From: Duganella sp. Leaf126
GTDB taxonomy: Bacteria > Pseudomonadota > Gammaproteobacteria > Burkholderiales > Burkholderiaceae_D
Length of the DNA stretch: 64,000 nucleotides
Direction: 5' to 3'
Assembly: GCF_001423125.1 (NCBI RefSeq)
Contig: NZ_LMNW01000031.1
Coordinates: 459,268-523,267, forward strand
The notes below the pieces were generated by a model. The model made no database searches, was not told the DNA's origin, and was given only the letters and a program-made list of their open reading frames with translations. Shown here piece after piece: positions 8,952-33,429 of this stretch; within the stretch, counting starts at the first letter, position 1; every line of letters starts with the position of its first letter. Made by a program: the position numbers and the translations under genes.

Positions 8952-8982
8952 AAAAAAACCTCCGCCGGTTTCCCGGCAGAGG
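8952..8982 (-). terminator. Rho-independent terminator of the TonB-dependent receptor
   Basis: Ten-base stem (CCTCCGCCGG with CCGGCAGAGG, one G-T pair) around a TTTC loop at 8959-8982. Read on the minus strand it is followed by seven T. It lies about 45 bases past the receptor stop codon. Confidence 0.85.
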
Positions 8983-9024
8983 CCCAAATACACTGCGGAG
9001 AGAGCAGTTTAAAACAGGGAGGAC

Positions 9025-11766: not shown

Positions 11767-12147
11767 TGATGTCCCCTCTGTACGACACTAGTAATTTCCC
11801 CGTGGTCATGGCGCACTTGGGTGGCGACTACACGAGGAAGCAGAAAAATAACGTTCTATAGACGTTCCAGAAAGAATTTTGTATTAAAACTAGATTCAGT
11901 GTCAATTGAACTTCGTGCCACTTACAGATTCATAGTGACGCAATACTGCGCCTCCCCGGGAAGGAAGCGATTCTCGTTGTATTTCAGCTACAATAAATGT
12001 GGCAAGTGGTTGTAGCAGAACTACAGTTTTTCGCTTGAAAATGCGCAATTTCTGAAACCACATGCCAAAACGCTCAGTAAAGTTGCGGCGCTTCATCGCC
12101 TGATGCGAGCGCCGTGTAGTACGACTACGAACGAAGACGAGGACCTC
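11767..12147. promoter_or_regulatory. Divergent control region, receptor / six-hairpin glycosidase
   Basis: A 381-base AT-rich region between two divergent genes. It contains the near-palindrome AACGTTCTATAGACGTT (11850-11866) around a perfect TCTATAGA core, a possible operator. No clear -35/-10 pair could be fixed for either gene. Confidence 0.35.
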
Positions 12148-15912: not shown

Positions 15913-17373
15913 ATGAAACCGATAGACGCATTTCTCCTGCCAAACAAAGCTTGGCATGCCAGTAAAGTTGCCGAACGTAGCTTATTACTGACCAGCGACT
16001 TGCTGGCACTGTTGCTGGCCGTTGCCTTGGGCCATGGATTGCTGATGGCGAGCGGAGTTGCTGGTGCTGGCAAAGCCGGTGGAGTGTTGTCGTCGTTGAT
16101 GTTGACACCGGTAGCTCTGGTACTGTTCTGGAACCAAGGTCACTATAGCAAGCGCAAGCCGTACGCCCGCGAGGTACGCGAAATGTTACATGCATGCGGT
16201 GGCTTATTCTTCGCCCAGGTGGCGCTGGCATTTTTCAGCGGCTGGGAGATGCCTCGCTTGTTACCGCTCGTCCAGTGGATCTCGGCGCCGGCGTTGCTGC
16301 TGACGCTGCGGGCGCTGCTCAAGTTCAGCATGCTGAGACACGGCAGCTGGAGCAGACCAATGGTCATTGTGGGCACCGGCGCCAATGCAAGAGAAACCGC
16401 GCGCGTTTTCGAAGCAGAACGCTTGATGGGTTACCATCTAATTGCCTTCCTCGACTTGCCAGGCAGCACAACCACCTCTGTTCAGTATCACGACCGCCGC
16501 GGGCGATCGGTACCGTGTCTACATTTGGGCGCGCAAACCGCAATTACCCTCAAACAACTTGGCTCTCCTCATGTCGTGCTTGCACTGGACCAAGGCGGCA
16601 TGGAGTCCTCGCAAATGCTGATTCAGCAACTGAGCCGCGATTGCACCAATCTGCAGATCGTCCCCTCACTACGTGGTCTTCCGCTGCATGGCATGTCGAT
16701 CAATCATTTTTTCGCCCATGACGTCATGGTGCTGGGTATGCGGAACAACCTCGCACAGCGCGGGCCACAGATGCTCAAACGGGCGTTCGACGTGTTCTGT
16801 TCAGCGCTGTTACTCGCACTGACCTCTCCACTTTTCCTTTGGGTAGCGATCCAGGTAAAACTGGGCGGAGGAGGTGGCGTGTTCTTTGGTCACATGCGTA
16901 TAGGTCAGAATGGTGTGCCATTCCCCTGTTACAAATTCCGTACGATGGCCGTCAATGCCGACGTGCTGCTTAAGGAATTGCTGGAAAATGACGCCGCAGC
17001 TCGTGAAGAATGGGAACGCGACTTCAAACTCAAGAATGATCCACGGGTCACCAAGATTGGCCGTTTCCTGCGCAAGACCAGCTTGGACGAGCTGCCACAG
17101 TTATGGAACGTGTTGAAAGGCCAGATGAGCTTGGTTGGCCCACGTCCGGTAATTCGTGCAGAACTTGAACGTTATGGGGAACAGGTTGGTTACTACCTGG
17201 AAGCGCGGCCAGGCATTACCGGACTCTGGCAAACAAGCGGTCGAAACGATGTCAGCTACGAAACACGTGTAAATCTAGATGCCTGGTACGTCAAGAACTG
17301 GTCACTATTTACCGATATCGTTATTTTAATCCGCACGGTGAAGGTACTACTGGTCAAAGAAGGCGCGTATTAA
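15913..17373 (+). CDS. wbaP: Undecaprenyl-phosphate sugar phosphotransferase, WbaP type
   Basis: Initiating enzyme of repeat-unit synthesis: transfers a hexose-1-phosphate (galactose or glucose in characterised members) from its UDP-sugar to undecaprenyl phosphate at the inner membrane. 486 aa, full length for the WbaP architecture. About four N-terminal hydrophobic segments (residues 20-145), a Rossmann-like central domain starting VIVGTGANARETARVFEAE, then a membrane re-entrant helix and the bacterial sugar-transferase domain: KRAFDVFCSALLLALTSP, CYKFRTMAVNAD, FLRKTSLDELPQLWNVLKGQ, MSLVGPRPV and ARPGITGLWQTSGRND. AAGGAG precedes the start at good spacing. It is the only initiating transferase seen. 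Confidence 0.94.
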   Translation: MKPIDAFLLPNKAWHASKVAERSLLLTSDLLALLLAVALGHGLLMASGVAGAGKAGGVLSSLMLTPVALVLFWNQGHYSKRKPYAREVREMLHACGGLFFAQVALAFFSGWEMPRLLPLVQWISAPALLLTLRALLKFSMLRHGSWSRPMVIVGTGANARETARVFEAERLMGYHLIAFLDLPGSTTTSVQYHDRRGRSVPCLHLGAQTAITLKQLGSPHVVLALDQGGMESSQMLIQQLSRDCTNLQIVPSLRGLPLHGMSINHFFAHDVMVLGMRNNLAQRGPQMLKRAFDVFCSALLLALTSPLFLWVAIQVKLGGGGGVFFGHMRIGQNGVPFPCYKFRTMAVNADVLLKELLENDAAAREEWERDFKLKNDPRVTKIGRFLRKTSLDELPQLWNVLKGQMSLVGPRPVIRAELERYGEQVGYYLEARPGITGLWQTSGRNDVSYETRVNLDAWYVKNWSLFTDIVILIRTVKVLLVKEGAY

Positions 17374-18230: not shown

Positions 18231-19112
18231 TCACATCTTAAACCCGTCACGCACGCCAGAGAAAAAATGCTTTCGCAAGCGACCTGTAAAAAATCGATAT
18301 TTAAGTGGACGAGTCAAAAGATAAAACGACAATGCAGCAATTTTTTGCAGGCCACGGTAGTTCTTTCGAATAAAGTAAATTCGGTTACGCTCACAATAAT
18401 AGGTTGCAAAGGGAGAAAGAGCACCGCCAGTGCTACTGCTTACCTTATGTTTCACCGTTCCATCAGGCCAATAATAAATACTGAACCCTGCTTGATTGGC
18501 ACGCCAGACAAAATCGGTATCGTCCTGATAGACAAAATATTTCTCATCCATTAGACCAATTTTTTCGAACACCGATCGATGGATCAACATAAAACATGTG
18601 GGGGCGTAATTAACATGCATACCAGTTGAAAATTCAGAGCCGTCATCCATCCCCTCTCCACGGTGTATTGTTGTCCCTTTCCAGGGAATAATGGCACCGC
18701 CGGCACACCATATTTTTCCAGAATCGAAGAAAGTAATTTTTGGTACCACCATCTTTTCTTGCCTGGCTTGCGCCATAGAATACATTTCAGCGAGAAGTTT
18801 CGGGCTTTCGAATTCTATATCATTATTTAATAGAACAATGTATTCGCAACCCATCTCCAATGCGAGCTCTGTACCCTGATTATTACCTTTTGCAACGCCC
18901 ACATTTTCTTTATTTTTGATGAGCGTAACATTCTTCATGCCATGCGCGTCGATTAACTCACGTGCAGCGTTATACGACTGATCATTCAAGCTATTATCAA
19001 GTATAAACAGCCAATAGTCCTGACATTCTTGAATTGCAAGACTCTCAAAGAAACCAGGCAGCACAGACTCGCTGTTGAACAGGACCGTTACGAGTCCAAG
19101 CTTCACGCTCAT
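18231..19112 (-). CDS. Glycosyltransferase family 2 (rhamnosyltransferase-like)
   Basis: Cytoplasmic or membrane-associated glycosyltransferase, 293 aa. N-terminal GT2 features: LGLVTVLFNSESVLPGF, LFILDNSLND, NVGVAKGNNQG and the metal-binding-site equivalent VLLNNDIEF; later PTCFMLIHRSVFEKIGLMDEKYFVYQDDTDF, split here only for description, is the acceptor region common to the COG1216 group that includes rhamnosyltransferases. Its start overlaps the stop of the upstream epimerase (ATGA). It is the last gene of the leftward exopolysaccharide transcription unit. Donor sugar is unknown; the neighbouring epimerase hints at a deoxyhexose. Confidence 0.88.
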   Translation of the reverse strand: MSVKLGLVTVLFNSESVLPGFFESLAIQECQDYWLFILDNSLNDQSYNAARELIDAHGMKNVTLIKNKENVGVAKGNNQGTELALEMGCEYIVLLNNDIEFESPKLLAEMYSMAQARQEKMVVPKITFFDSGKIWCAGGAIIPWKGTTIHRGEGMDDGSEFSTGMHVNYAPTCFMLIHRSVFEKIGLMDEKYFVYQDDTDFVWRANQAGFSIYYWPDGTVKHKVSSSTGGALSPFATYYCERNRIYFIRKNYRGLQKIAALSFYLLTRPLKYRFFTGRLRKHFFSGVRDGFKM

Positions 19113-20242
19113 TTATAAAGACCCCGCGATTTCATTTCCTCAATACTCTGATCATAACTATCTTTTTGTACCGCTTGTTGATTAACCCACGTGGTAAATT
19201 TTTTAATGCCTTCGACGAAGTTAATTTTTGGCTCAAAACCCAGCAAATTTTTAGCCTTTGTCAGATCCGCAAAGTTATGGCGAATATCGCCCAGACGATA
19301 GGCGCCAGTTACGGTGATCGGTACGTTAACGTTGTATTGCGACACGAGGGTATTTGCGACAGTTAAAACATCTGTAGCAACGCCCGAACCGATACCGAAT
19401 ACCTCACCGTTTGCTTCGTCTTTGAGTAGTGCAGCGGTTGTTGCCTGTACGACATCACTGATAAACACAAAGTCACGGCTTTCTTTACCATCCTCGAAAA
19501 TGTCAATTTTATTACCATTTTTGATTCGCGTAGAAAAGATCGACAAGATGCCAGTGTAAGGATTGCTTAACGACTGACCAGGGCCATAGACATTTTGGTA
19601 GCGCAACGCGGTCGCGCCGATGCCAAGGGACCCGCACACAGTCATCACCATCTGCTCTTGATTTTGTTTGGTAATACCATATACCGAAGAAGGATGGATT
19701 TTAGATTCTTCGTCGGTAGGCAATAATTCCAGCACGTCTCCCGTTGCGCTGCATAGTGGATCGAAGCGTCCTGCTTTCATATCGCTATCCAACCGTTGAC
19801 CTGGATAAACTATTCCAAGCGCTTTCGATCGGTATTTTCCTTCACCATAGATCGAGCGCGAAGAAGCTACCACGACTTTTTTAATAGAATGCTTGGTGTT
19901 GGCAAGCAAATCCAGCATCAACGCGGTGCCACCGATATTAACGTCAACGTATTTCTTGATCTCATACATCGACTGCCCGGTTCCCGTCTCGGCAGCCAAG
20001 TGCACGATTGCATCTTGTCCAGGGAGTACCGACAACCAGGACGCCTCGTCGCAAACTGAACCCTTAACAAATCTTACTTTATCACGAACACTCAAGAACA
20101 AAGGCGACGACGTCGTTGGATCATCTCCATGAATCTGGGGTGACAGGGTATCTAGAACCGTTACCTCATGCCCAAGACCGATCAGATGCAATGCTAAATT
20201 CGAACCGATAAATCCCGCACCACCCGATATCAATACATTCAT
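19109..20242 (-). CDS. NAD-dependent nucleotide-sugar epimerase/dehydratase
   Basis: Extended short-chain dehydrogenase/reductase, 377 aa from the ATG at 20242, where the nucleotide-binding fold begins at once (MNVLISGGAGFIGSN). Other landmarks: IVHLAAETGTGQSM, the serine region VVVASSRSIYGEG, catalytic YGITK and RYQNVYGPGQSL. Length and the segment SPLFLSVRDKVRFVKGSV recall dTDP-L-rhamnose 4-epimerase-like enzymes rather than GalE or RmlB. It would make a nucleotide-sugar donor for the exopolysaccharide. No rml genes are in the window, so the precursor would come from elsewhere. The substrate assignment is tentative; the SDR class is firm. Confidence 0.85.
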   Translation of the reverse strand: MNVLISGGAGFIGSNLALHLIGLGHEVTVLDTLSPQIHGDDPTTSSPLFLSVRDKVRFVKGSVCDEASWLSVLPGQDAIVHLAAETGTGQSMYEIKKYVDVNIGGTALMLDLLANTKHSIKKVVVASSRSIYGEGKYRSKALGIVYPGQRLDSDMKAGRFDPLCSATGDVLELLPTDEESKIHPSSVYGITKQNQEQMVMTVCGSLGIGATALRYQNVYGPGQSLSNPYTGILSIFSTRIKNGNKIDIFEDGKESRDFVFISDVVQATTAALLKDEANGEVFGIGSGVATDVLTVANTLVSQYNVNVPITVTGAYRLGDIRHNFADLTKAKNLLGFEPKINFVEGIKKFTTWVNQQAVQKDSYDQSIEEMKSRGLYK

Positions 20243-20355
20243 ATTTTTTCCAATCCATTCTAAATTTACAACTTGATTCAGCAGAAGCAAGCTTTCTTGA
20301 AGAAAAACATTTTAAGTTTCACACAGAAACTATTTTAATTTACCAAAGAAATATT

Positions 20356-21813
20356 TTATTCCATTCGAAATTTAATATTCGTGCGATCAATAATACGCGT
20401 TGTCGAGTATCCCTCGTGAAAATCGAGCGCAATCACTTCTCCGCCAGCTTCAGTAACAACCTCGTAGCCGACGATTTCCTCTACCGGATAATCCCCCCCC
20501 TTTACCAACACGTCTGGTATCAGCTTACGAATAATTCGCTCTGGCGTATCCTCGTCAAATTCCACCACCCAATCAACACTCTTTAATGCCGCCAGCACAT
20601 GCATGCGATCGGCACACCCATTAATGGGTCGTGCGTTTCCTTTTAGGCGTTTTACAGAGGCATCAGTATTCACAGCGACCACTAGTAGGTCGCCTAAACG
20701 ACGTGCGGCCTCCAAATAGCGAGTGTGGCCGACATGTAATATGTCGAAGCAGCCATTGGTGAAAACGACACGTTTCCCGTTTTCCTTGGCGGCAGTAACT
20801 CGGGCCAGTAGAGCGTCTTCCGCCATGATCGGCTGCTCCACTCCACCCACTCCATAAAGCACATGTTCAAGCTCGATCGTGGTAATGGCGGAAGTTCCGA
20901 ATTTTGCCACAACGATTCCGGCCGCCATATTTCCCAGCCTGCAGGAAAGTTCCAGATCCTTCCCACTAGCCAGCGCAGTTCCCAAAGTCGCGATAACGGT
21001 ATCGCCAGCGCCAGTAACGTCAAAAACTTCCCGCGCCTCCGTGGGCAAATGCAAGGGTGGCTCATTTTGGCGCAGCAACGTCATTCCGTGCTCGCTACGC
21101 GTAACCAGTAAGGCGTCGAGGCCAAGCTTTTCTCTCAAAACCAGCCCTTTCGCAACGATCTCGCCTTCATCTGCGCAATGGCCTACCACCGCTTCGAATT
21201 CAGCCATATTAGGAGTGATCAACGTCGCGCCGGAATATCGAGAGTAGTCGACGCCTTTCGGATCGACGATTACCGGCTTACATTGCCGACGGGCCTCCGC
21301 AATCATGTCTTCGATAGATGACAGGGTACCTTTGCCGTAGTCAGAGAGAATCACTGCATCGACGGTTGCCAGGGCATCAATAAACTTCGCGTACAAACCG
21401 CCACGATCGAAACATCCCTCACTGCCTAGCGAACTTTCGAAGTCAAGCCGCATCAGTTGCTGGTTGCGCGAAACCACCCGCAATTTTGTAATTGTGGGGC
21501 AATTTGAAGAAACTACGAAATCGGCTTGTACGCCAAATGCGGCCACTGAATTAGTCAGCAAGCGTGCGGCATCGTCGTTCCCCACAACACCAAGTAACCT
21601 AACGCTGGCACCAAGACTGGCAACATTGACGGCGACGTTGGCAGCTCCACCTGGACGCAGATCATCTTTGTCGATATTAACTACCTGGACCGGAGCCTCA
21701 GGGGAAATCCTTCCTGTGGCACCTGACCAATAGCGATCAAGCATCACATCACCGACCACCAGCACGCGCGCGGTATCCAGGCGTAGGCCTAACTCAAGTT
21801 CTTGAAGAGACAT
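20356..21813 (-). CDS. hldE: Bifunctional heptose-7-phosphate kinase / heptose-1-phosphate adenylyltransferase
   Basis: Cytoplasmic enzyme of 485 aa making ADP-D-glycero-D-manno-heptose from heptose-7-phosphate (with GmhB acting between its two steps). N-terminal PfkB-type kinase (about 1-325): VVGDVMLDRYWSGATGRISPE-like start, RPGGAANVAVN, and the ATP/catalytic motif DVTGAGDT. C-terminal nucleotidyltransferase (about 345-480): FTNGCFDILHVGHTRYLE with HVGH, and KGGDYP. The gene is 10 bases downstream of gmhA and in the exopolysaccharide unit rather than beside core-LPS genes. A run of eight G (coding strand; C at 20493-20500) falls in the KGGDYP codons and could slip. Confidence 0.95.
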   Translation of the reverse strand: MSLQELELGLRLDTARVLVVGDVMLDRYWSGATGRISPEAPVQVVNIDKDDLRPGGAANVAVNVASLGASVRLLGVVGNDDAARLLTNSVAAFGVQADFVVSSNCPTITKLRVVSRNQQLMRLDFESSLGSEGCFDRGGLYAKFIDALATVDAVILSDYGKGTLSSIEDMIAEARRQCKPVIVDPKGVDYSRYSGATLITPNMAEFEAVVGHCADEGEIVAKGLVLREKLGLDALLVTRSEHGMTLLRQNEPPLHLPTEAREVFDVTGAGDTVIATLGTALASGKDLELSCRLGNMAAGIVVAKFGTSAITTIELEHVLYGVGGVEQPIMAEDALLARVTAAKENGKRVVFTNGCFDILHVGHTRYLEAARRLGDLLVVAVNTDASVKRLKGNARPINGCADRMHVLAALKSVDWVVEFDEDTPERIIRKLIPDVLVKGGDYPVEEIVGYEVVTEAGGEVIALDFHEGYSTTRIIDRTNIKFRME

Positions 21814-21823
21814 CGTGCACCTA

Positions 21824-22405
21824 TCAGGCCAATTTCAGCTTATGCTCAACGAGCTCGATCATGATGTGTAACATTTTGATATGCAGCTCTTGCACGCGAT
21901 CTGCGAAACTCCCAGCGGGCGTACAGAGGCTAATGTCGGCGAGTTGGTCTAGCGGACTCCCTTCACGCCCCGTCAGACCGATGACAAACACGCCCAGCCT
22001 TTTAGCGCTATCGACTGCGTTGAGTACAGACGGACTAGTTCCGCTTGTGCTAATGGCGATCAGACAATCTCCGCTACGGCCATGTGCTTCGATGAACCGC
22101 GAGAAAACGAAATCGTATCCATAGTCATTGGCTACACATGTGATATGCGCTGGATCACTTATTGATAGCGCCGCCAGTGCCTTTCGATTTTTACGGAAGC
22201 GGCCAGAGAGCTCTTCTGCGAAATGAATGGCATCGCACATCGATCCTCCGTTGCCGCAAGACATTGCCTTACCATCACTCTTAAAGGACTCAGCCAACAT
22301 AGTGGCAGAACGGTCCAGATTAGACAGAACGGTATCGTTTCTCAGCAAGTTATCCAGGCCAATCTGCGCCTCGCTAAGAGAATGCTTAATAATTTCAATA
22401 CTCAT
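21824..22405 (-). CDS. gmhA: Sedoheptulose-7-phosphate (phosphoheptose) isomerase
   Basis: First enzyme of ADP-heptose synthesis: converts sedoheptulose-7-phosphate to D-glycero-heptose-7-phosphate in the cytoplasm. 193 aa, typical size. One SIS domain with the GmhA signature SCGNGGSMCDAIHFAEELSGRF split across residues about 50-72, then ISTSGTSPSVLNAV (phosphate-binding) and a C-terminal helix with ELHIKMLHIMIELVE carrying the metal/active-site Glu and His. It sits directly upstream of hldE and downstream of a GT9 gene. Together these argue that heptose is made for this polysaccharide. Confidence 0.94.
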   Translation of the reverse strand: MSIEIIKHSLSEAQIGLDNLLRNDTVLSNLDRSATMLAESFKSDGKAMSCGNGGSMCDAIHFAEELSGRFRKNRKALAALSISDPAHITCVANDYGYDFVFSRFIEAHGRSGDCLIAISTSGTSPSVLNAVDSAKRLGVFVIGLTGREGSPLDQLADISLCTPAGSFADRVQELHIKMLHIMIELVEHKLKLA

Positions 22406-22452
22406 ATTATTCCGGTTGCTCTTGCAATATATTATATAAATTTTTCAAAATA

Positions 22453-23469
22453 CTACGAAGACACATTTTTTGACAATGCGCACAGGACGCGTTGAGGTTC
22501 GATAGAGCGAATACAGATAAATTCTGAATCGGTTCCATCGCATTTTGTCATATTATTACAGGGGTAATACTCACAGCCACCACTTTTGGCAAGAAGTATA
22601 CTGTTAGGTGGAGGCCACATCGTGGGATCACTACCCGCGTTGATCAAAACATTTTTAACGCCCTGGCGTTGAGCCATATGAACGCCAAAGCTATCGAGAC
22701 CGACGAAAATATCTAGATTAGCAACTTCATTTGTAAAATCAGATAATGATTTAGTATAAATTCTCACACGTGGCAATATTGGGGAAAAAATCCGCTCTAG
22801 CGTTGGACGCTCCGATCCTGCGCCAAATAATGTAACATCATGGCCATTATCCACGAGCTGCAAAGCAAGATCCCGCCAATTTTCTTCCGGCCACATGCGG
22901 CAGCGTTTCGAGGCGAATGGATGGAGGCCAATTTTGAGCTTTTCCCCTGAAATCCCTCGAACACTGGAGAGTATGCTCGTTTGATTTCCTTTGGTAAGTG
23001 CAGCGAGAAACATGCCATAGGATTCATACACCCCTGGACAACTCGACGGTATGACAACTGAGGGTACACCTGATCCAAACGGATTACGAATGATCTGCTT
23101 AAATGGGTGACCGTCCTGCCAACCGATATACTCGTGCTTCTGTGCGCCAATCAATCGCGCGAAAAACCGTTCACGAAAATCTCCAATTAGATCCATGGAA
23201 GTAGTCAGTCCCAGACGGCGTAATTTCCGTACCGCCTTCATAAATTGATAGGCATTTTTCCAACCAAAATTTTTTGTCGTTCCTACCGGAAACTGAGAAC
23301 AAACCACCCGACAATTCTCAATGTTTTCAAACAAAAAGGCCACTTGCGGCCGAACCCACGCGACATAATGCTCAGCATATCCACTTAAAGCGAGTTTTTC
23401 CAGAAACGCACTTTGAATTACAGCGTCCCCAAGATTTCTCGAAACAATCAGACAAACAGTTCTTTTCAT
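22453..23469 (-). CDS. Glycosyltransferase family 9 (heptosyltransferase-like)
   Basis: GT-B-fold transferase, 338 aa from the ATG at 23469 (an in-frame TTG at 23481 is less likely). Family features: N-terminal CLIVSRNLGDAVIQSAFLE, LKIGLHPFASKRCRMWPEENW in the donor half, DVTLFGAGSERP, and LDIFVGLDSFGVHMAQ followed by NAGSDPTMWPP, the ADP-heptose-binding region of the GT9 family. Known members add heptose from ADP-heptose to LPS core. Its position immediately upstream of gmhA-hldE makes a heptosyl transfer to the exopolysaccharide repeat unit the most economical idea (inference). Four C-terminal cysteines (CEYYPCNNMTKCDG) may bind metal, as in other GT9 proteins. Confidence 0.85.
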   Translation of the reverse strand: MKRTVCLIVSRNLGDAVIQSAFLEKLALSGYAEHYVAWVRPQVAFLFENIENCRVVCSQFPVGTTKNFGWKNAYQFMKAVRKLRRLGLTTSMDLIGDFRERFFARLIGAQKHEYIGWQDGHPFKQIIRNPFGSGVPSVVIPSSCPGVYESYGMFLAALTKGNQTSILSSVRGISGEKLKIGLHPFASKRCRMWPEENWRDLALQLVDNGHDVTLFGAGSERPTLERIFSPILPRVRIYTKSLSDFTNEVANLDIFVGLDSFGVHMAQRQGVKNVLINAGSDPTMWPPPNSILLAKSGGCEYYPCNNMTKCDGTDSEFICIRSIEPQRVLCALSKNVSS

Positions 23470-23487
23470 TTTTGCAAGCAATTCTCA

Positions 23488-24489
23488 TCAAGCTAAGGCA
23501 CGTAAAGGCAAAACCTCGTCCAGCCAGCCATTGAGCGTATATTTTTCGATAACTTCCTGCGGCAGTTCGCAAAATTCGCTCTCCAAGAATTCTCTTGGAA
23601 TCCTAATATTTTCCCTGTCTATGACCAGCACGTTTTCTGGTCGATAAAAATCGGTTTTCGTGGCAAACGCGTTCGTCGTAATAATTTTCTTGCGTGCCCC
23701 TACAGCTTCCAGCGTTCGCATTGTGAGGCCGGTTTGAATAGGGCGCTCGATATCAACAACTATACGGCTGCGAGCAAGAAGCATTTTTAGTTCGTCCTTG
23801 AATACCGGTTTGAAAATAAATTCAGCTCGTTTCGCAGTCCAGAAGGCCGGTTGCAGAATTCGTCGCCCCATATAGACCAAACGGGAAGAAAAATACATAA
23901 TTTTTTTAAAAGTCATGCCATTCGGAACAGAACTCTGCATCCGTGACAGAACCTGATAACGGTCCGAGTGGATCGTGCCAAAGAAAAAGAGGTCGATGTC
24001 TGTCTTCGTCGGCGGCAATCGAAAATATTCGTCGAGACAAAATAACGGGCGATATTTAAGCCTGACATCATTCTGTGCGTCTACCGGGTCAAATGTAAAA
24101 GCCCGATCAAATAAACCCACCTTCGTAGGACTATCGGACGACATGTTTTTATAACTGTCCCAGAAATAAAGCGTAAAACGCGCGTCGGGCAATGCGAGGC
24201 GCAGCCGACGTATCGCCTCACAAGACAAGGCCTGCCCTTTTATCACCAGGACGTCGGTGATCGGGTGCGAGCGCGCGCGTTCGGTGACAGCCTCAAAATA
24301 GGCTTCTGCTTTCCCACGCAGTATGCGAGGTGAAATCCTAATCAGCGCTTTGGTCAAGGTATCAGCCGCAGGACGGTCATCTACCAGCATGGCATTGATA
24401 CCCCGTCGTGCCAATGCCGTCTTGATTTCCTCGGAGTAGCCGAAGAAATCTGGTGAGATGATAAGACAGCTATAAATTTCAGAAGACAT
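23488..24489 (-). CDS. Putative glycosyltransferase, GT-B-like (CgeB-like)
   Basis: 333 aa from the ATG at 24489. Not clearly assignable. The N-terminal half has alternating hydrophobic strands and helices starting CLIISPDFFGYSEEIKTALA; the middle has FTLYFWDSYKNM, LFDRAFTFDPVDA and DIDLFFFGTIHSDRY; the C-terminal half has RSRIVVDIERPIQTGLTMR followed by EAVGARKKIITTN, the pattern of the donor-binding half of CgeB-type and some capsule GT-B proteins, where a Glu helps hold the nucleotide. It is packed between GT9 and the polymerase with spacings of a few bases, so it is almost certainly part of the same operon and pathway. Confidence 0.65.
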   Translation of the reverse strand: MSSEIYSCLIISPDFFGYSEEIKTALARRGINAMLVDDRPAADTLTKALIRISPRILRGKAEAYFEAVTERARSHPITDVLVIKGQALSCEAIRRLRLALPDARFTLYFWDSYKNMSSDSPTKVGLFDRAFTFDPVDAQNDVRLKYRPLFCLDEYFRLPPTKTDIDLFFFGTIHSDRYQVLSRMQSSVPNGMTFKKIMYFSSRLVYMGRRILQPAFWTAKRAEFIFKPVFKDELKMLLARSRIVVDIERPIQTGLTMRTLEAVGARKKIITTNAFATKTDFYRPENVLVIDRENIRIPREFLESEFCELPQEVIEKYTLNGWLDEVLPLRALA

Positions 24490-24499
24490 TTTATACAAT

Positions 24500-25798
24500 C
24501 TAGACTTTATTTTGGGACAGAAGGTCGGAACTCTTGAACCGCTTTTTTTTCATCCCAAAACCGAAACAAACATACATAATTGATGCTATGACAGGAATTG
24601 CATGTATGCTTAACACATAAAATTCGATGAAAAATTTACCGACGGTTGTATATATCATCATGACGAGAATGGCGCTAACGATTGAATCTTGGAAATTCAT
24701 ACCCTTTAGCGCACGTAGGAATACCCCGGTAATAAAGCCAGACAAGGCCGGAATTAACAGCACGCCCAGCCAGCTAAAATTTACGTATCCCCACAAGGCA
24801 GTAGTGAGGCGCAGTCCGCCAGTAACCATTTCCGAAATATCAGCCCCAATGTCATTGTAAGTAAGCGTCCACACGCTTGGATTCCACATATAGTTGCTTG
24901 GGACCAGTCCGCCAACCATCGTTTTTCCGTATGTAAATGGAGAATATTGGGAAAATCCCTGAAGAAACTCGATCTGGTCTGCGATGTCTGGAGTTCCCGA
25001 TCCAATGATCGAAGCTATCGAATCCAGCGAATAGAAAGATCCAAATCGCTCGATGCCGGTCAACAAGCCTAATATCAAGTAGCTGGCGCTACCAATAGGA
25101 AAGATCACGCCTAAAAAACATGCGAACGCGATACCGGTCCAACGCTTTCTGGCGGCCAAAACGCCCACAAACACAAGAACGCCGCTCAGTGATGCCCCTC
25201 GAGCCAATGAAATCATCAGCAAGAAAATCATCGCAAGCGCGAGCCACATGTAAATTCTCTTTTTGTAGTACCACCACAAAGTCAGTACGATCGGCAACAT
25301 TCCTACCATCACTGCAAAACTAAATCTAAACAGATAAGCAGCCCGCTGGTATGGTTCAAAATATTCGTTTTTGAACTGTTTGGCACTCATCGGATCAGCT
25401 GCGAACATGGGTACAAAACCCATTAACGCATACGCCAGACATATGCCGACGGAAGCTACACATGCCAGCATTATGACTCTGCGGGTAACTGCCTTCAAAT
25501 CGATATTTGCGGGAGAGATCGGATTTAATTTTTTTCGCAGCCAATGGTGGCACGGTGAGTAGAATCCAAGTGCCATACCCAGAATCAGGGCGATGGTACC
25601 AAAGACATTGACATACATATATAGTTCATTGGTATTCGCGTCCACGATATCCCAGACATCCGTGTACAATCCTGGAACAATATATGCAGTTACACAGAAG
25701 CCCAAGTTCAGGTGAGCCGGGACATTCCAGCGGTTGGGCCAGAATATATAAGGCGCCAGCAATTGCAGCACTAGTGCAATAACAGTCAGGGCGTACAA
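24500..25798 (-). CDS. wzy: Polysaccharide repeat-unit polymerase, Wzy-like
   Basis: Integral membrane protein of 432 aa with about eleven to twelve hydrophobic helices and one large periplasmic loop (about residues 245-320, FLQGFSQYSPFTYGKTMVGG to the DIGADISEMVTGG stretch), the topology of O-antigen/EPS polymerases. The start is TTG at 25798, preceded by AGGTGA; no ATG lies nearby. The start overlaps the end of the acyltransferase gene by 13 bases. Sequence identity in Wzy proteins is poor, so the call rests on topology and location between acyltransferase and glycosyltransferases. It would link flipped repeat units in the periplasm. Confidence 0.8.
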   Translation of the reverse strand: MYALTVIALVLQLLAPYIFWPNRWNVPAHLNLGFCVTAYIVPGLYTDVWDIVDANTNELYMYVNVFGTIALILGMALGFYSPCHHWLRKKLNPISPANIDLKAVTRRVIMLACVASVGICLAYALMGFVPMFAADPMSAKQFKNEYFEPYQRAAYLFRFSFAVMVGMLPIVLTLWWYYKKRIYMWLALAMIFLLMISLARGASLSGVLVFVGVLAARKRWTGIAFACFLGVIFPIGSASYLILGLLTGIERFGSFYSLDSIASIIGSGTPDIADQIEFLQGFSQYSPFTYGKTMVGGLVPSNYMWNPSVWTLTYNDIGADISEMVTGGLRLTTALWGYVNFSWLGVLLIPALSGFITGVFLRALKGMNFQDSIVSAILVMMIYTTVGKFFIEFYVLSIHAIPVIASIMYVCFGFGMKKKRFKSSDLLSQNKV

Positions 25799-26850
25799 TT
25801 AATCACCTGTTGTTTGGTGATCGCACTGGTGCGATGTTTAAGGAAAGGCTTTTCTATAAAGTTCCAAGAAAACACAGCAGCAGAAAATACAACCATTATC
25901 GTTCCCAACATCGTGGCTACTGGATTACTGGAGAAATAGCCCAACGCTATAGCCGTTTGCACAATTGGCACATGAAACAGATAAATACCAAACGAAAAAT
26001 CGCCGTGCTTTCCAACGTCCCCAAGACGAGGTAGCGTCAGTGCCGCCCAGCTAACAATCGCAGCCACTGCAAGAGGAGCGCCGAGGCGGAACAGCCATCC
26101 GTTAGTCGAAGCATAAAATACGAGAGCTAGCACGGCAGCATAGGTCGGTAAACGTGCGCCATCACGAGTTGCATAATAACACCATGCTCCGCCCACAAAA
26201 TAGGCAAGTTGACCTGGTAATTGCTTAGCAAGCCGTAGATAAAAATCATTCCCTGCATGTTCGCCAAAAAAAGAGAAGCCAGACATCCATGCAGAGGAGA
26301 GCACAAACAACATGCCCAATACTGGTCGATAGCCGATTCGCCGCGATGCCCAAACAATCACTGGCGCACAGGCATAAAATAGAACCTCGATCTTGATTGT
26401 CCACAGCGATACATTTACAGCACTCTCATACTGATGCACAAATACACCAGGCAACGAAGGTGCACTGAAATTTGCCAGAGCCAAATTCATTCCGATATAA
26501 CGCCAGAACCCTACATTGGAGAAATAATCTACAGCACTTAATGACGACATTGTCGACAGAATAATGGCAGCGCCAACAACCACAAAAACATATGCAGGGG
26601 CGATCCGAAACAGCCTTTTTTTTCCGTATTCCAAGAGCGAACGTGATTTTTCGCAACTCATGGTAACAAGATATCCGCTAACCACGAAAAAGGCCTGGAC
26701 CGCGAAGGTCGCCGAAATATTCATTGTCCAGCTAAGTACTGGTGACTGAGACAGTATTCCAATGTGAAAAAAAACGACCATGCTTGCGAAAACTAGCCGC
26801 AGCAAGTCAAAATTGTTTTTATGAGGAACAGGAAGGTTTGTAGAATTCAT
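25786..26850 (-). CDS. Acyltransferase, family 3 (OafA/YrhL type)
   Basis: Membrane O-acyltransferase of 354 aa. Start at 26850, where the family N-terminus follows at once (FDLLRLVFASMVVFFHIGIL, with the conserved His); an upstream in-frame extension to 26949 is not supported. About ten hydrophobic segments, with the motif YGKKRLFRIAPAYVFVV after the first two helices. Established knowledge: members acetylate or otherwise acylate sugars of O-antigens and exopolysaccharides. Here it is likely to acetylate the repeat unit. The intergenic space upstream to the co-polymerase gene is 191 bases, AT-rich, without a clear promoter. Confidence 0.9.
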   Translation of the reverse strand: MNSTNLPVPHKNNFDLLRLVFASMVVFFHIGILSQSPVLSWTMNISATFAVQAFFVVSGYLVTMSCEKSRSLLEYGKKRLFRIAPAYVFVVVGAAIILSTMSSLSAVDYFSNVGFWRYIGMNLALANFSAPSLPGVFVHQYESAVNVSLWTIKIEVLFYACAPVIVWASRRIGYRPVLGMLFVLSSAWMSGFSFFGEHAGNDFYLRLAKQLPGQLAYFVGGAWCYYATRDGARLPTYAAVLALVFYASTNGWLFRLGAPLAVAAIVSWAALTLPRLGDVGKHGDFSFGIYLFHVPIVQTAIALGYFSSNPVATMLGTIMVVFSAAVFSWNFIEKPFLKHRTSAITKQQVINCTP

Positions 26851-27041
26851 TATGTTATTAGTCTTGGACACTATCTGGTTCCGGCATCGGGTACGTCGGT
26901 ACAAGACTCCACACAACAAGGAGGGCCAACACGGATTTACGCACTCCATTTCTGAGACAGACAGGAGATAGAGTGCCTGTGTGATTACTGATTAATTTCT
27001 TTATTTGACATCCGCAATGTTAATTGACGCAAAATAGAAAC

Positions 27042-28256
27042 TCAGCTTTTCCACGATGCTTTGAGTTTTTTCCATCGAATTTGCCCAGCTTCGGACTGAC
27101 GTGATCTCACATAAGCATCGCGTAAGTACGCAATAACGACGCCCAATACACTGCCAATTACCAATCCTCCCAAAATGGTCAGTAACCTCTTCGGTCGAAT
27201 TTTCTTTTCAGCAGGTTCCGCGGTATCAAGCTGTTGTATTAAGGACGAATCCTTGGCTTCATCAACCTTTGCCACTTCGAACTGCCGTGCCAGCATTTCG
27301 AACATTGTTTCTTGATACTTGACGTCGCGGACACGGCGAATGTATTCCACCCCCACTTCCGGGATTTGCCCGGTTGGGATCATTGGATTTCCGCTTGCCG
27401 CTTTCCCCCCTGTTTGCAGTTTTGCCAACTGCTCTTTCAGGCTGCGTAACTCTTCTTGAGCACGTAACACTTGCGGATTAGTAGAGGTTGCAAAGGTTTT
27501 GGTAGCACTCAATTGCACCTCCCGCGCCGCAATCTGTGCCTGTAATTGGGCCGTATTTGCGATGATGCTCTTGACTTGCCCGTCGAGCTGCAGCATGCCT
27601 GTTTTCTTCTGCACATTTTGCAATGCAATTTCAGCAGTCGCCAGATCATCTTTGGTGGCTTTCAGCTGTCTTTCAAAGAAGACCCGACGCTTGGCAGCCT
27701 CTGAAACGGCCAGATCTTTGGTCAGTGTACTCAGTTCAGCAATGTAAGCATTGGCGATATTAGCGGCCAGCTTAGGGTCTGTATCCTCGACGACAACAGT
27801 AATCATGCCATCTTTACCACTGGTCACTGCGGTATTCTGGAGCAGTGTCTTACGCGTATCGGACATGGTCTCCAGATCGTAGTGATGTTGGAGATCAAAT
27901 TTCTTGATCAAAGCATCACCGATCACGCGACTTTTAAGCATACCGACATACATTTCGTTGGGGTTTTTCAACCCCGCCAAGCCACCAGCAGCTCCTGCCA
28001 GTCCCCCCAGCTGACCCAGCATTGCGGTCATTCCAGACGTGCTTTGCTGTTGTGGTGGCAGAATGACGGTTGTTGAAACAAACACTGGCGCACTCAGCAC
28101 TGCTACCGCGACCGCAATCGCAGTAGTCAAAACCGGAACCCCGATTAGGATTTTTCTTTGACGCCCCAGCGCCGACAGTCCATCCAACAGATGAAACTCT
28201 TCCTCAGCTTCATGTTCAGGGGGACGCTCTGCCGGATTATGTGCGTTTTCAACCAT
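27042..28256 (-). CDS. wzz: Polysaccharide co-polymerase, Wzz family, no kinase domain
   Basis: Inner-membrane protein of 404 aa controlling chain length. N-terminal cytoplasmic tail, transmembrane helix 1 (about 37-58), a large periplasmic domain with PVFVSTTVILPPQQQ, a glycine-rich segment GQLGGLAGAAGGLAGLKNP, long coiled-coil helices (about 195-300), then IRPKRLLTILGGLVIGSVLG as the proline-containing lead and helix 2, and a short basic tail. There is no Walker-type tyrosine kinase after helix 2, and no Wzc/Wzb-like gene occurs in the window. It follows the Wza-like gene by 43 bases. Confidence 0.92.
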   Translation of the reverse strand: MVENAHNPAERPPEHEAEEEFHLLDGLSALGRQRKILIGVPVLTTAIAVAVAVLSAPVFVSTTVILPPQQQSTSGMTAMLGQLGGLAGAAGGLAGLKNPNEMYVGMLKSRVIGDALIKKFDLQHHYDLETMSDTRKTLLQNTAVTSGKDGMITVVVEDTDPKLAANIANAYIAELSTLTKDLAVSEAAKRRVFFERQLKATKDDLATAEIALQNVQKKTGMLQLDGQVKSIIANTAQLQAQIAAREVQLSATKTFATSTNPQVLRAQEELRSLKEQLAKLQTGGKAASGNPMIPTGQIPEVGVEYIRRVRDVKYQETMFEMLARQFEVAKVDEAKDSSLIQQLDTAEPAEKKIRPKRLLTILGGLVIGSVLGVVIAYLRDAYVRSRQSEAGQIRWKKLKASWKS

Positions 28257-28299: not shown

Positions 28300-30300
28300 T
28301 TAATCTTTCAGTACTTTCAGACCTGCAGCGCCTAAACCGAACTGATAGAAAATCGAGGTCCACTCTTTCAAGCTTTGCGCCCAAGACGTGTGCGGGACCG
28401 CTTCCGGAATCACGATGGTATCGCCAGCATTGATCTTGCTGCTGCCGATGCCGGAGAACCAGCCTGAGTCATTGGCGCTATGCGTAGTCCCGTCCGCCCG
28501 AAGGATATACATTTGCGAGGTGTCCGCAGTCTGGTTCGCTCCGCCTGCGAGCTTGACATAGTCGCTGACAGTACGATTAGGACGATAAATGAAAGAGTTT
28601 TGCTGGAATACCGCACCCATCACGTCCACCGTGTCTGGACGGCGCGGGATGTGGATGTTGTCGCCATCGCGCAGAGCCAGGTCTGGCAAGTTTTTGATCA
28701 TGGCGTCACCATCGGTCAATTCGAGCACGATGCGGCCTTTGGACTTGACTGCAGCCATGCGCTCAGCATTGCTACGCTGGCGTTCAAGTTGCGCATTGAT
28801 CAGCGTCACCGCGTCCTTGTCCGACGTGGCGGCCAGTTGTTGGGACGAGCCGATTTCTAGGTCGCGCATGAACCGCTTAGACATTTCATCGAGTCGTTCC
28901 TGCTGTATGCGACGTACAGATTCACGCGTAACTTCGGTCGCAAAGACATAGGCCTTGTCAGTCACCCCCAGACGAGCCACGAGGGAGCGCAAGGTTTCTC
29001 CTTCCCGGATCTGGAAAGCGCCGCTCTCTTTCACTTCGCCAGAGACGCGTACGTATTCATTGCTGATCGCGGCTTTTACTGGCACAGCAGATGGTGCAAA
29101 GATACGAATCACATCGGCTGGCATGAGTGGCAAGGCTGCCAGGCCCGGATCTCGCTCGGCCGGCGCAGAATGCAGCGTGGCGACGGTTTTAAAATCGTTG
29201 TTGACGTTTTTCTCTACAATAACCTGCTTGGCATCGGCTGAAGAGGCGAAACCACCGGCCCAGCTCACAGCGTCGGCAATCGACGACGGACCCTTCATTT
29301 CGAAAATTGCTGGACGTTTTACATCGCCAGTCAACGCAACCATCGAACCAACTTGCGGCACATACACGACGTCGCCGTCCTGCAGCGGAATGTCGTGAGA
29401 TTTGTCCCCTCTGAGCAAGATGTCGTACATATCGAACGTCGTCACCACCTTGCCACCACGCTTAACCTCGATATTACGCATCGACCCAGTAGCGTCCGGA
29501 CCGCCAGACGTAAACAGCGCGTTAAGCAACGTGCTCATTGCGCTCAGCGTGTACGTTCCCGGACGAACGACATTGCCAACGACATAAATCTGAACCGGTC
29601 GTACTTGTGAAATACTTACGGCCAAGTCAAAGTTATTGAAGTTTTTGCTGACAGCACGCTTCAAGTAAGCTTGCAGATCGCCATATCTTACGCCGGCAAC
29701 ATTGACAGAACCCACTCGCGGGATATAGATCGCGCCAGCGCGGTCGACCTTGGCGGCAACGTCGATATTGACCATGCCCCACCCGCGGATTTGTAGTTCG
29801 TCGCCAGTGCCGACCAGGTAATCTTGGTTGACTTGCGGCGCCGTCACCGGAGAAAAAGTGCTCGGTACACCATCGAAAAGGTCGGAGCCAAAAATGGTCA
29901 GCTTTTTACCTGTCGCACGGGAGCTGTCGATGACAGTGGCGACGAATTTCTCAAAATCGCCCGGCTTGCGCGGCTGACGTGGACCAGAACGCATGAATTG
30001 AGAATCTTGCTGATTTGCCGATCGCTGCCACTCGTATGGAAACTGTGACTGTCCCGGAGACAACTGTGATTGCGACGACTGTGATTGGCCAGGTTGCGGC
30101 AGCTGCGAACGACCGTTGGTGATGGTTGGCAGTTGCGGGGTCTCCGCCCCAGGTAATACGGCGGCGGTGGCGTAGTCATCGTCCTCACGCTCCGGCGATG
30201 CACTTTGCGCCAAGGCGGTAGACGTCAACGCACTCAACATGCACGCTGAGAAGATGACTTGCGTCAAAATCGGCTTTGCTTTCGGACTAGGCTTTTTCAT
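28300..30300 (-). CDS. wza: Polysaccharide export protein, Wza-like with multiple SLBB domains
   Basis: 666 aa, much longer than E. coli Wza (about 380). N-terminal signal sequence ending ALAQS, a Gln/Ser-rich low-complexity linker (about 45-85), then a Poly_export domain (DYLVGTGDELQIRGWGMVN to about 250), and about four SLBB beta-grasp modules (VVGNVVRPGTYTL; ALTGDVKRPAIFEM; RVSGEVKESGAFQI; VMGAVFQQNSFIYR). A C-terminal amphipathic helix (WAQSLKEWTSIFYQFGLGAAG) resembles the helix that lines the Wza outer-membrane pore. I see no convincing lipobox, so it may not be acylated as Wza is. It is the exit channel for the polymer. Confidence 0.9.
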   Translation of the reverse strand: MKKPSPKAKPILTQVIFSACMLSALTSTALAQSASPEREDDDYATAAVLPGAETPQLPTITNGRSQLPQPGQSQSSQSQLSPGQSQFPYEWQRSANQQDSQFMRSGPRQPRKPGDFEKFVATVIDSSRATGKKLTIFGSDLFDGVPSTFSPVTAPQVNQDYLVGTGDELQIRGWGMVNIDVAAKVDRAGAIYIPRVGSVNVAGVRYGDLQAYLKRAVSKNFNNFDLAVSISQVRPVQIYVVGNVVRPGTYTLSAMSTLLNALFTSGGPDATGSMRNIEVKRGGKVVTTFDMYDILLRGDKSHDIPLQDGDVVYVPQVGSMVALTGDVKRPAIFEMKGPSSIADAVSWAGGFASSADAKQVIVEKNVNNDFKTVATLHSAPAERDPGLAALPLMPADVIRIFAPSAVPVKAAISNEYVRVSGEVKESGAFQIREGETLRSLVARLGVTDKAYVFATEVTRESVRRIQQERLDEMSKRFMRDLEIGSSQQLAATSDKDAVTLINAQLERQRSNAERMAAVKSKGRIVLELTDGDAMIKNLPDLALRDGDNIHIPRRPDTVDVMGAVFQQNSFIYRPNRTVSDYVKLAGGANQTADTSQMYILRADGTTHSANDSGWFSGIGSSKINAGDTIVIPEAVPHTSWAQSLKEWTSIFYQFGLGAAGLKVLKD

Positions 30301-30351: not shown

Positions 30352-33300
30352 TCAATAATTTTTTTGCCACGATACGCTGACAGACTTAGGTCCCGGAACA
30401 ATCGCTAACCCGCCGCTGCCCTGCTCACGTTGCGCGTGCCATAGCCAACTGCCCACTGCATAGCCGATCACTCCACCTGCAACGGTATCGGATACCCAGT
30501 GCTTGCGGCCTGCCACTCGGCCTGCTGACCCCAGCGCGGCCACACCATACAACCATGGCGCATCGTATTCTTTGGCAAACGGCGTGATTGCTGCGAATGA
30601 CACCGTTGCATGCCCGGACGGGAAGGATGCATCAGAGCGTGAAGAGCTGTCACCGACACGCGACCACGGACCGCGCTCTTCATCAGGTCTGGCACGGCCT
30701 ACGGCGTATTTGCCCACCAAAGTAAATCCGGTAGCGATACCGATCGACTGCAGGGAAATCAAACCGGTATTGCTCATACGCTTGTCGCCCAGTGCAAACG
30801 CGGCGCCTGCTGCACCGACCAGCGCGTAAGGCAGGGCGTTGCCATAGGTATTAAGTCCGCTGATGACCTTCTTGTCCTGATACTTCTTCATCTGGCGATC
30901 GACCGGCTTGTCAGCCAGCGAAGAGACGAGCACTGCGCCGACTGCCAGGGTAGCGGGGCGCAGCCATTGCTCACGCGCCGGCACGACATTCAGCGACTGG
31001 TCGATGCGCTCACGCACCATCGGTAGCGGATTTTCGAATGGTGTATCCGGTGGGCTCACTGCCAGCAATTGCTGTTCATCGGGCCGTTCGGCAAAGTTGC
31101 CAAGTCCGTCGTAGGAATTCATGTCGCGCCGCGGCTTCTCAACCATATCGTAGAGATCGCCGGGTGACGCGACCATCTGTCCGATGTCCCGCGTCCATGG
31201 AGAGAGTGAAAAGCCGATTGAATTCTGCGAATCGAGCGGCAGCATAGTGCGGAGCGGAATTGAGAGGAACACGCCGCGATCCTGGTAGGGCTTGCTCGGC
31301 GTTCCCGGCGAGGTAATATCATTGCCGTTGGTATGTGAGTACCATGCACCGACCTCGATGCCGGACTGGAAGCGACGTTTGAACTCGATGCGTACCCCCT
31401 CGTCACGGGCAAGGAAACGCCCAGCCCGGGCGGTAACTGTAATGCCCCGGGCAAACTGATAGTGCAGAGAGGCAATTGCAGTGACGGTCTTATAGTCAAG
31501 ACTGTCGAACAAGCGCTTATAGCCACGCTGTTGTAACGCGTCGACCGACAGATCAGCAGCCCATTTGCTGCTTTGGGGCAGATACAAGACTTGACCGCCC
31601 GCACCACGAAACATGTCTTCGTACAGACCGACGGAACCGCGGACATACCAACGCTCGGCCGGATTGGCGTATTTATTGATCAACAGCCGGTTCAACGCAA
31701 AACGGCTCTCACCGAGATACTTGGCGACATCGGTACGCACATGCGGCAAGTTACTGTTCGATGGCTGCCTGACCCCGGAAACCGTTTCGAGAATCGAGAC
31801 GCTGGCAGCTGTATTCAGATAAAGGCCGTCACCAAGACGTCGATCGTAATTGGCGGCAGCCGACAGGGAATATCGGAAGGCTCCGCTAGGATCATTAAAG
31901 AAAAACCCGAGTTTGGGGGCGACCTTCAAGCGGTTGCTTTCGCGGTCCACTGATGTCAGCTGCACGACATCACCCTCATGTCCAACCGCCACGCGCAATT
32001 TTCCATCAGCTTCGACGCCCGTGACATTTGCCGCACTGCCCGATACCACAGAGTCTTTCGCCGGAGCGACCGCAGCAACGACGTCGGTCACCGCAGAAGA
32101 TGTCGGCGCAGAAGGCGCAGCCGGAGACGCCACTGCAGACGCACCGCAGGGGGCTGGTGCGGACGGTGCCTCAGCCGCGCTGGTGAGCGCAACCTTCTGC
32201 TCTGGGGTAGCGGATGTGTCGAGCAGGCCCGCAATCCAACCTTGCTGGTCATCGGTGATGACATCGTCCCGGTTAGGGTAACGAACCAGCACCACATCGT
32301 TAAACGCTTTGCGGTCGATCTTTCCCGCCAAATAATCTTGAAGTTTCGGTAGATCGAAGAATTCGTAGGTGACCAGTGGCTGGTCGAGCTTGGTATACGT
32401 GACCTTGATCGTCATTACGCCAGCTGGCGCAAACGCCAGCGCCGTGCGCATGGCACGCCCGACCGCTCGCCCCGTGTCGTAAATACGGTTGTTGGTAAAA
32501 GTAAGATTGAGGACGCTGCCGGTAAGAGAAACGCGGATATTCTGATAATCCTGGGCCGCCAGCGCTTTGATCAGATCCGCGCCATAGCCCGCGTCTTGGC
32601 GCCACTCGGGTATTGATGGCGGCGTGATCGGATCTTTGTCTTCGAAAAACGGTGGCTCATAGATCTTGGGGACATATTCGCGCTCATTGAACGGAATACT
32701 GACGAAAGCGTTAAAACTAAAATTGTCGCGTCCACGTGCGGCTTGTATGCCCAGCCACCCCCAGCGATACTCAAGGCCCACCGCCGGGCCTTTACGACGC
32801 TGATCGGCACCCGACATCTGCGGCAGGTAATCCTTTTTATAATCAGTGGAGTTGTACTCGGCTACTACCGACCAGTTGGGATGGCTGACGGGCGTCCATC
32901 GCAAGCCGGCAAAAGTGCCACTCATGCGTTTGGTACCATAACCGAGACTGACCTCAACATTGCGGGTCGCTCCGAAAGTCTTGCTACCCACTGCATAATA
33001 GCTTTTGAACAGCTGGGTACCAAAAACGTCGGTCGCACCTACCGCGACCGATGGTAGCCAGGCGCGCTCGGTCCACAACTGGACTTTGCCATCGATAACC
33101 TTATCCTTGTAACGGCCATAGCCTGCGCCATAAGCGAGCTCTTCTTGAGAACCACCAAACGGTGGAATACCGACAATCGAGACATAGCGGGCGGTGGCCT
33201 GGACCGACGGCAAAATTGTAGAACTGACCCACAACTGACCATATGGGCTGTCGTAACCGTAGCCTACGCTGAACGTACCATCGGCTTCAACCGCAGCGCT

Positions 33301-33429
33301 GGGCATATTAATGTACCCTGACTGCCCATTGTTGCTTGGCGTCGCGGCGACGCTGTCGTGACCTGCAAAGATCAAACAGCCACACCAGGTATATTTAACC
33401 GATTTTCTAAGCGCGCTTAACAAGTCCAA
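30352..33429 (-). CDS. YjbH-domain outer-membrane protein fused to a PAP2 phosphatase
   Basis: 1025 aa. The N-terminal 800 residues or so are YjbH-like: QSGYINMPSAAVEADGTFSVGY, a first barrel-like region, a helical insert near 280-360, a Ala/Pro/Ser linker (about 415-455), and a second beta-rich region. The last 190 residues are a complete PAP2 (type 2 phosphatidic acid phosphatase) domain: K907-x6-R914-P915 (KYAVGRARP), PSGH at 937-940, and R971-x5-H977-x3-D981 (GRVAGRKHWVSD). All catalytic residues are present. The start is a TTG at 33429 with GAGGAG upstream at long spacing; a signal-like segment follows. It begins the leftward export operon. YjbH proteins are implicated in exopolysaccharide export; PAP2 enzymes dephosphorylate lipid phosphates such as undecaprenyl diphosphate. 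Confidence 0.88.
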   Translation of the reverse strand: MDLLSALRKSVKYTWCGCLIFAGHDSVAATPSNNGQSGYINMPSAAVEADGTFSVGYGYDSPYGQLWVSSTILPSVQATARYVSIVGIPPFGGSQEELAYGAGYGRYKDKVIDGKVQLWTERAWLPSVAVGATDVFGTQLFKSYYAVGSKTFGATRNVEVSLGYGTKRMSGTFAGLRWTPVSHPNWSVVAEYNSTDYKKDYLPQMSGADQRRKGPAVGLEYRWGWLGIQAARGRDNFSFNAFVSIPFNEREYVPKIYEPPFFEDKDPITPPSIPEWRQDAGYGADLIKALAAQDYQNIRVSLTGSVLNLTFTNNRIYDTGRAVGRAMRTALAFAPAGVMTIKVTYTKLDQPLVTYEFFDLPKLQDYLAGKIDRKAFNDVVLVRYPNRDDVITDDQQGWIAGLLDTSATPEQKVALTSAAEAPSAPAPCGASAVASPAAPSAPTSSAVTDVVAAVAPAKDSVVSGSAANVTGVEADGKLRVAVGHEGDVVQLTSVDRESNRLKVAPKLGFFFNDPSGAFRYSLSAAANYDRRLGDGLYLNTAASVSILETVSGVRQPSNSNLPHVRTDVAKYLGESRFALNRLLINKYANPAERWYVRGSVGLYEDMFRGAGGQVLYLPQSSKWAADLSVDALQQRGYKRLFDSLDYKTVTAIASLHYQFARGITVTARAGRFLARDEGVRIEFKRRFQSGIEVGAWYSHTNGNDITSPGTPSKPYQDRGVFLSIPLRTMLPLDSQNSIGFSLSPWTRDIGQMVASPGDLYDMVEKPRRDMNSYDGLGNFAERPDEQQLLAVSPPDTPFENPLPMVRERIDQSLNVVPAREQWLRPATLAVGAVLVSSLADKPVDRQMKKYQDKKVISGLNTYGNALPYALVGAAGAAFALGDKRMSNTGLISLQSIGIATGFTLVGKYAVGRARPDEERGPWSRVGDSSSRSDASFPSGHATVSFAAITPFAKEYDAPWLYGVAALGSAGRVAGRKHWVSDTVAGGVIGYAVGSWLWHAQREQGSGGLAIVPGPKSVSVSWQKNY

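Follow-up and report, generated by a model that had tools for sequence, protein, structure and literature searches.

A YjbH/GfcD-type outer-membrane protein with an appended PAP2 phosphatase domain, encoded in a polysaccharide export operon of Duganella sp. Leaf126

Results

Gene content of the fusion locus

The analysed DNA, a stretch of 64,000 nucleotides from Duganella sp. Leaf126 referred to as the window, contains a gene for a YjbH protein that continues into a PAP2 domain. The gene lies on the minus strand (33429..30352), runs without interruption and has TTG at its putative start; the N-termini of aligned homologues resemble that of the window protein. It is the first gene of an operon that also encodes an OPX exporter and a Wzz protein (Table 1), so that the export genes which an earlier interpretation of the letters alone (the sequence-only reading) had proposed to look for next to the fusion are indeed present. 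The name YjbH is also in use for an unrelated Spx adaptor in Firmicutes.

Table 1. Positions of the fusion gene, its parts and neighbouring polysaccharide genes in the window
Feature	Position	Strand	Basis or remark
Undecaprenyl-phosphate sugar transferase (Bac_transf)	15913..17373	plus	
Rest of polysaccharide cluster: acyltransferase, polytopic membrane protein (possible Wzy), GT9, GmhA-like SIS, HldE-like, epimerase, GT2	18231..26949	minus	
Wzz/GNVR chain-length protein without kinase	27042..28256	minus	
OPX (Wza-like) exporter with Poly_export and SLBB domains	28300..30300	minus	Directly downstream of fusion gene
YjbH-PAP2 fusion gene	30352..33429	minus	Single unbroken ORF, 1025 aa
Signal-peptide-like segment, residues 1-26	33352..33429	minus	Predicted; model helix 3-22, '...SVAATP' at end
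YjbH N-terminal barrel, residues 29-275, 12 strands	32605..33345	minus	Pfam; AlphaFold2 strands 52-246
YjbH middle (periplasmic) alpha/beta domain, residues 276-405	32215..32604	minus	AlphaFold2; homologous to M2 of second architecture
Ala/Pro-rich linker, residues 406-480	31990..32214	minus	pLDDT <50; length differs among relatives
YjbH C-terminal barrel, residues 481-765, 13 strands	31135..31989	minus	Pfam; AlphaFold2 strands 489-725
Plug segment and junction, residues 766-815	30985..31134	minus	Fixed length; PAP2-less relatives stop here
PAP2 domain, residues 816-1005; catalytic K907, R914, S938, H940, R971, H977, D981	30415..30984	minus	Pfam, alignment, AlphaFold2, Foldseek
C-terminal beta hairpin, residues 1006-1025	30355..30414	minus	AlphaFold2, low confidence

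The genome encodes only one YjbH and gives three OPX-type matches, and a genome search for YjbF/GfcB found none. OPX or Wzz genes were present in the examined flanks, which were not always full length, of 36 of 65 fusion loci from named genomes and were not found in those of the other 29; in 24 of the 65 an OPX gene lies directly downstream on the same strand. At a Massilia fusion locus lacking both, the neighbours are still polysaccharide genes, including those for a SIS protein, a GHMP kinase and a nucleotidyltransferase.

Heptose-pathway-type genes (GmhA-like, kinase/nucleotidyltransferase) occur both in the window cluster (20356-22405) and in a second cluster (L041:7026-9340), and their position beside the fusion in both genomes suggests that the polymer may contain heptose. 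Judged from translations only, positions 2163-14700 of the window probably form a sugar-utilisation island with a sugar transporter, an alpha-glucosidase-like and a glucoamylase-like protein and a TonB-dependent receptor. Elsewhere in the same genome (L143:553-2493) a 646-residue PAP2-type acid phosphatase is encoded that has a signal-peptide-like start and, towards its end, an autotransporter-like passenger repeat.

Domain anatomy and predicted fold

Pfam assigned three stretches of the window protein, spanning approximately residues 29-764, to YjbH (PF06082; E 2.2e-140, 470 bits against a cut-off of 24), with the profile being covered over the whole family length, and residues 891-1002 to PAP2 (PF01569; E 1.6e-17, 63.9 bits against a cut-off of 27.2). 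A full-length AlphaFold2 model built from 67 sequences (mean pLDDT 80, approximately 90 in the PAP2 core) was read for secondary structure and gave, in chain order, 12 strands, a mixed domain (residues 273-405), 13 strands, a plug helix (residues 759-771) and the PAP2 helices. These strand counts agree with the published model of E. coli GfcD (PMC11494523). A Foldseek search of the full-length model against the PDB returned barrels with E >0.001 and low TM-scores, which are informative for the fold class only. The domain search and the structure prediction of the whole frame thus both recovered YjbH and PAP2. The sequence-only reading had let the YjbH-like part extend over about 800 residues; its assignment holds, but the real end lies near residue 776, with PAP2 comprising residues 816-1005. 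All motif positions (K907, R914, P915, P937-S938-G939-H940, R971, H977 and D981) are exactly where that reading had placed them.

Modelled alone, the PAP2 domain reached a mean pLDDT of 90, with 95-98 in the core. Foldseek related this model to B. subtilis PgpB, acid phosphatases, glucose-6-phosphatase, LpxE and E. coli PgpB, all of them PAP2-type folds, with a probability of 1.00 for PgpB, LpxE and the acid phosphatases and a best E of 2.7e-4. TM-scores were 0.57/0.63 for B. subtilis PgpB (5jki), 0.71 (target TM) for LpxE (6ebu) and approximately 0.5 for the acid phosphatases. Confidence of the model and resemblance to solved structures argue against a C-terminal part that is not folded as PAP2. 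The nearest solved proteins by sequence are soluble class A acid phosphatases, enzymes whose substrates are small phosphate esters.

In 54 of 54 aligned fusions the distance between D758 in the plug and K907 in PAP2 is 145-151 residues, whereas the linker from the middle domain to the second barrel (segment 398-486) varies from 19 to 95 residues in the same set. This constant spacing next to a variable linker argues for a defined placement of PAP2 and not for a loose tether. PAP2 is appended after the plug, the point at which PAP2-less relatives end.

Distribution and conservation of the fusion

The same architecture recurs in other genomes, where the sequence-only reading had suggested searching for it: a scan of named genomes identified 78 related loci, 65 of them fused, mostly as full-length frames, and 13 with YjbH alone. 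The related loci come from Duganella, Janthinobacterium, Massilia, Telluria, Herbaspirillum, Chromobacterium, Vogesella, Aquitalea, Pseudogulbenkiania, Crenobacter, Craterilacuibacter, Chitinimonas, Sulfuricella, Gallionella and others; according to the record titles the fused loci are nearly all from Betaproteobacteria, many of them soil or water bacteria. Since dozens of independently sequenced genomes carry the fusion, an assembly join or a frameshift at the junction is ruled out. YjbH and PAP2 in one frame of 1025 residues, as originally described, are hence borne out by profiles, fold prediction and wide conservation, and the case for a YjbH/GfcD-type outer-membrane protein with an appended, apparently active PAP2 domain is, as far as sequence evidence goes, solid.

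Genome samples of increasing breadth showed how the fusion is spread. Among the 61 genomes searched first the whole fusion was present in one genome of the same genus (64% identity) and in two genomes of other families (approximately 40-46%); with 1 of 36 same-genus genomes it is rare in the genus. In the family sample 20 of 196 genomes, the window's own included, gave a match running into PAP2 in a long frame, and besides these one genome had only a 151-residue PAP2 piece and another a YjbH without PAP2. Both architectures (see below) were present in the order sample, in several families. No fusion was seen outside the family in the phylum sample of 398 genomes, where a long-frame PAP2 of this kind occurred in two (the window genome and one family member) and the remaining matches were stand-alone PAP2 relatives. 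The plasmid search matched YjbH proteins, most of them from Alphaproteobacteria, in their second barrel only. The explanation that the PAP2-less relatives are split genes was rejected, as the flanks examined contained no PAP2 of this clade.

Mean identity among the fusions is 51% for PAP2 versus 54% and 62% for the barrels, which suggests that PAP2 is nearly as constrained as the barrels. The dN/dS ratio relative to Duganella is low, with dS being saturated. The existence of barrel relatives without PAP2 (13 of 78 loci) implies that PAP2 is dispensable for YjbH function. Such close relatives, together with the attachment of PAP2 directly after the plug segment, would suit a catalytically idle structural cap or plug regulator; all catalytic residues are, however, invariant in 54 of 54 aligned fusions, so we regard this as the most improbable of the explanations considered. 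The catalytic residues are likewise kept in 31 of 31 sequences covering both architectures and one stand-alone sibling.

A second architecture and the history of the PAP2 domain

At least 11 genomes of the same taxonomic order encode a second architecture (GfcC-Nbar-M1-Cbar-M2-PAP2 type), in which a PAP2 domain of the same clade is combined with another YjbH lineage. The seven proteins extracted at full length comprise 1211-1486 residues, with approximately 260-350 extra residues at the N-terminus. The six scanned with Pfam have a GfcC-like domain, which scores weakly (18-28 bits around a cut-off of 20), and in the four loci tested a GfcB/YjbF-like gene with scores near the cut-off is located directly upstream. 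In five of the seven full-length proteins the middle domain is present a second time, located between barrel and PAP2. We observed such a GfcD middle-domain copy, after the second barrel and just before PAP2, in L124:4643-8668 as well as in L123, L131, L132 and L133; the single middle domain of the window protein matches this post-barrel copy (M2), not the one located between the barrels.

In the PAP2 tree the sibling clusters with the fused domains of both architectures, apart from other PAP2 proteins (SH-aLRT 90); within this cluster the two architectures are intermixed with moderate support. The tree of the second barrel needs approximately 10 changes of fusion state, at least three of them on well-supported branches. 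Repeated changes of fusion state and intermixed architectures indicate that PAP2 was lost, gained or exchanged repeatedly. One genome encodes both a stand-alone PAP2 sibling from this clade and, at a different place, a GfcC-YjbH protein lacking PAP2. The C-terminus of stand-alone PAP2 relatives (L136:6004-6789, also L148, L149, L151, L152, L159 and L163) is a short amphipathic strand whose final residue is Phe and which resembles the last strand of outer-membrane barrels; several of these proteins have a signal-peptide-like start.

With class A acid phosphatases as the best solved sequence relatives, the domain might also be a soluble-class periplasmic phosphatase that is attached to an outer-membrane protein by chance and serves phosphate scavenging. 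Exporter genes in the operon, two architectures that both involve capsule proteins and the fixed plug-to-PAP2 geometry all argue against this, making it improbable.

Location of the PAP2 domain

The best 19-residue hydropathy of the PAP2 segment is 1.31 (1.1-1.75 in relatives) versus 1.8-2.3 for a canonical membrane PAP2 protein of the same genome; the window PAP2 lacks the strongly hydrophobic transmembrane helices of inner-membrane PAP2 enzymes. With helices of such weak hydrophobicity the domain is expected to pass the Sec translocon. In GfcD the middle domain sits at the periplasmic entrance of the second barrel (PMC11494523), and the middle-domain homologue between barrel and PAP2 in the second architecture thus argues for a periplasmic PAP2. 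We infer that PAP2 lies at the opening of the second barrel, next to the middle domain and on the face of the outer membrane turned towards the periplasm. As strand 13 of GfcD appears to be parallel to strand 1, the chain exits on the outer side and must return through the lumen; should it not pass back, PAP2 would be on the cell surface.

These properties bear on the roles that the sequence-only reading had offered. Two of these were recycling of the undecaprenyl diphosphate carrier and release of the polymer from it, which PAP2 would have to carry out at the inner membrane across the periplasm. PAP2 enzymes typically use undecaprenyl diphosphate as a substrate, and the cluster, which includes a Bac_transf initiating enzyme, resembles those of the Wzx/Wzy type, but the short link of fixed length to an outer-membrane protein, helices that are not of the inner-membrane type, and BacA and several other PAP2 proteins, canonical membrane ones included, in the same genome make carrier recycling the weakest of the roles offered and render this explanation very unlikely. 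Moreover, ordinary PAP2 phosphatases act on terminal phosphates, whereas freeing the polymer from undecaprenyl diphosphate would require a phosphodiester-type reaction such as other members of the superfamily carry out.

The third was that of an outer-membrane phosphatase modifying the lipid A (or phospholipid) that surrounds the polysaccharide channel. Such a role has been put forward for P. gingivalis LpxE, a lipid A 1-phosphatase of the PAP2-barrel type that is proposed to reside in the outer membrane and for which a reduced helix hydrophobicity has been reported (PMC12704123). Our PAP2 model matches an LpxE structure (6ebu) in Foldseek. Domain order and barrel type differ from P. gingivalis LpxE, though, the NCBIfam output contained no LpxE model (the nearest PAP2 model was SepP with 17.2 of 250 bits), and a periplasm-facing domain would be out of reach of lipid A in the outer leaflet. 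We consider this role unlikely, yet the least so among the rival explanations.

Discussion

Comparison with known systems

The window protein shares with GfcD/YjbH (PF06082; group 4 capsule operon gfcABCDE, yjbEFGH) the 12-strand barrel, the middle domain, the 13-strand barrel, the plug and a nearby OPX gene; it differs from these systems in its C-terminal PAP2, in that no GfcB was found in the window genome and in a kinase-less Wzz in place of Etk. P. gingivalis type LpxE likewise combines a predicted outer-membrane barrel with a PAP2 domain of low helix hydrophobicity, but there PAP2 comes first and is followed by a small 8-strand barrel, no polysaccharide export protein is involved, and the organism belongs to the Bacteroidota. 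Bacterial membrane PAP2 proteins such as PgpB and LpxE have the fold and the catalytic motifs in common with the window PAP2, whereas they are single-domain inner-membrane proteins with strongly hydrophobic helices. Class A non-specific acid phosphatases (PhoN, E. blattae) are alike in core fold and catalytic residues but are small soluble periplasmic enzymes without barrels, while the window PAP2 is part of a 1025-residue barrel protein. Composite translocons of Myxococcus also combine an OPX protein with a partner outer-membrane barrel, which is of another family and has no phosphatase (PMC9601211, PMC9603273). We found no description of a YjbH-PAP2 fusion in the literature searched, the coverage of which excludes most subscription journals. 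Both halves are known families, and what is new, within that literature, is their combination.

A possible role in polysaccharide export

We favour a reading, to which we assign a probability of roughly 45%, in which the PAP2 domain is a phosphatase that is tethered to the outer membrane and faces the periplasm; positioned where the second barrel opens, it would act on a phosphate that the cargo carries at its lipid or reducing end. The fusion protein would be the double-barrel outer-membrane component of an OPX/Wzz polysaccharide export system. When the polymer, or a lipid carrying it, enters the second barrel, PAP2 would strip off a phosphate exposed on the lipid anchor or at the reducing end, and this dephosphorylation might be linked to export, or to release through the lateral gate that has been proposed for GfcD (PMC11494523) into the outer membrane. 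Candidate substrates are the 1-phosphate of lipid A, another lipid phosphate or a phosphate of the polymer. That the fusion would bring lipid-phosphate hydrolysis to the polymer exit is plausible.

Some other members of the PAP2 superfamily are phosphotransferase-like. A more far-reaching and rather improbable variant is that PAP2 cuts or transfers the lipid-phosphate linkage of the polymer in such a manner upon entry into the GfcD-type gate, as the last step for some lipid-anchored or released capsules; if so, carrier release would be an outer-membrane event.

The favoured reading, a phosphatase acting on the cargo at the second barrel, bears on what GfcD/YjbH proteins move, on how capsular polymer leaves or stays on its lipid, and on the nature of the anchor. 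With a catalytic mutant, the fusion offers a one-residue handle on the cargo of the barrel. It would be a second example, built differently, of an outer-membrane barrel linked to a PAP2 enzyme. As a natural enzyme fusion, it would mean that phosphate chemistry belongs to the export machine in at least one large bacterial group, and it suggests that phosphate removal may be part of the placement of surface polysaccharide in some bacteria.
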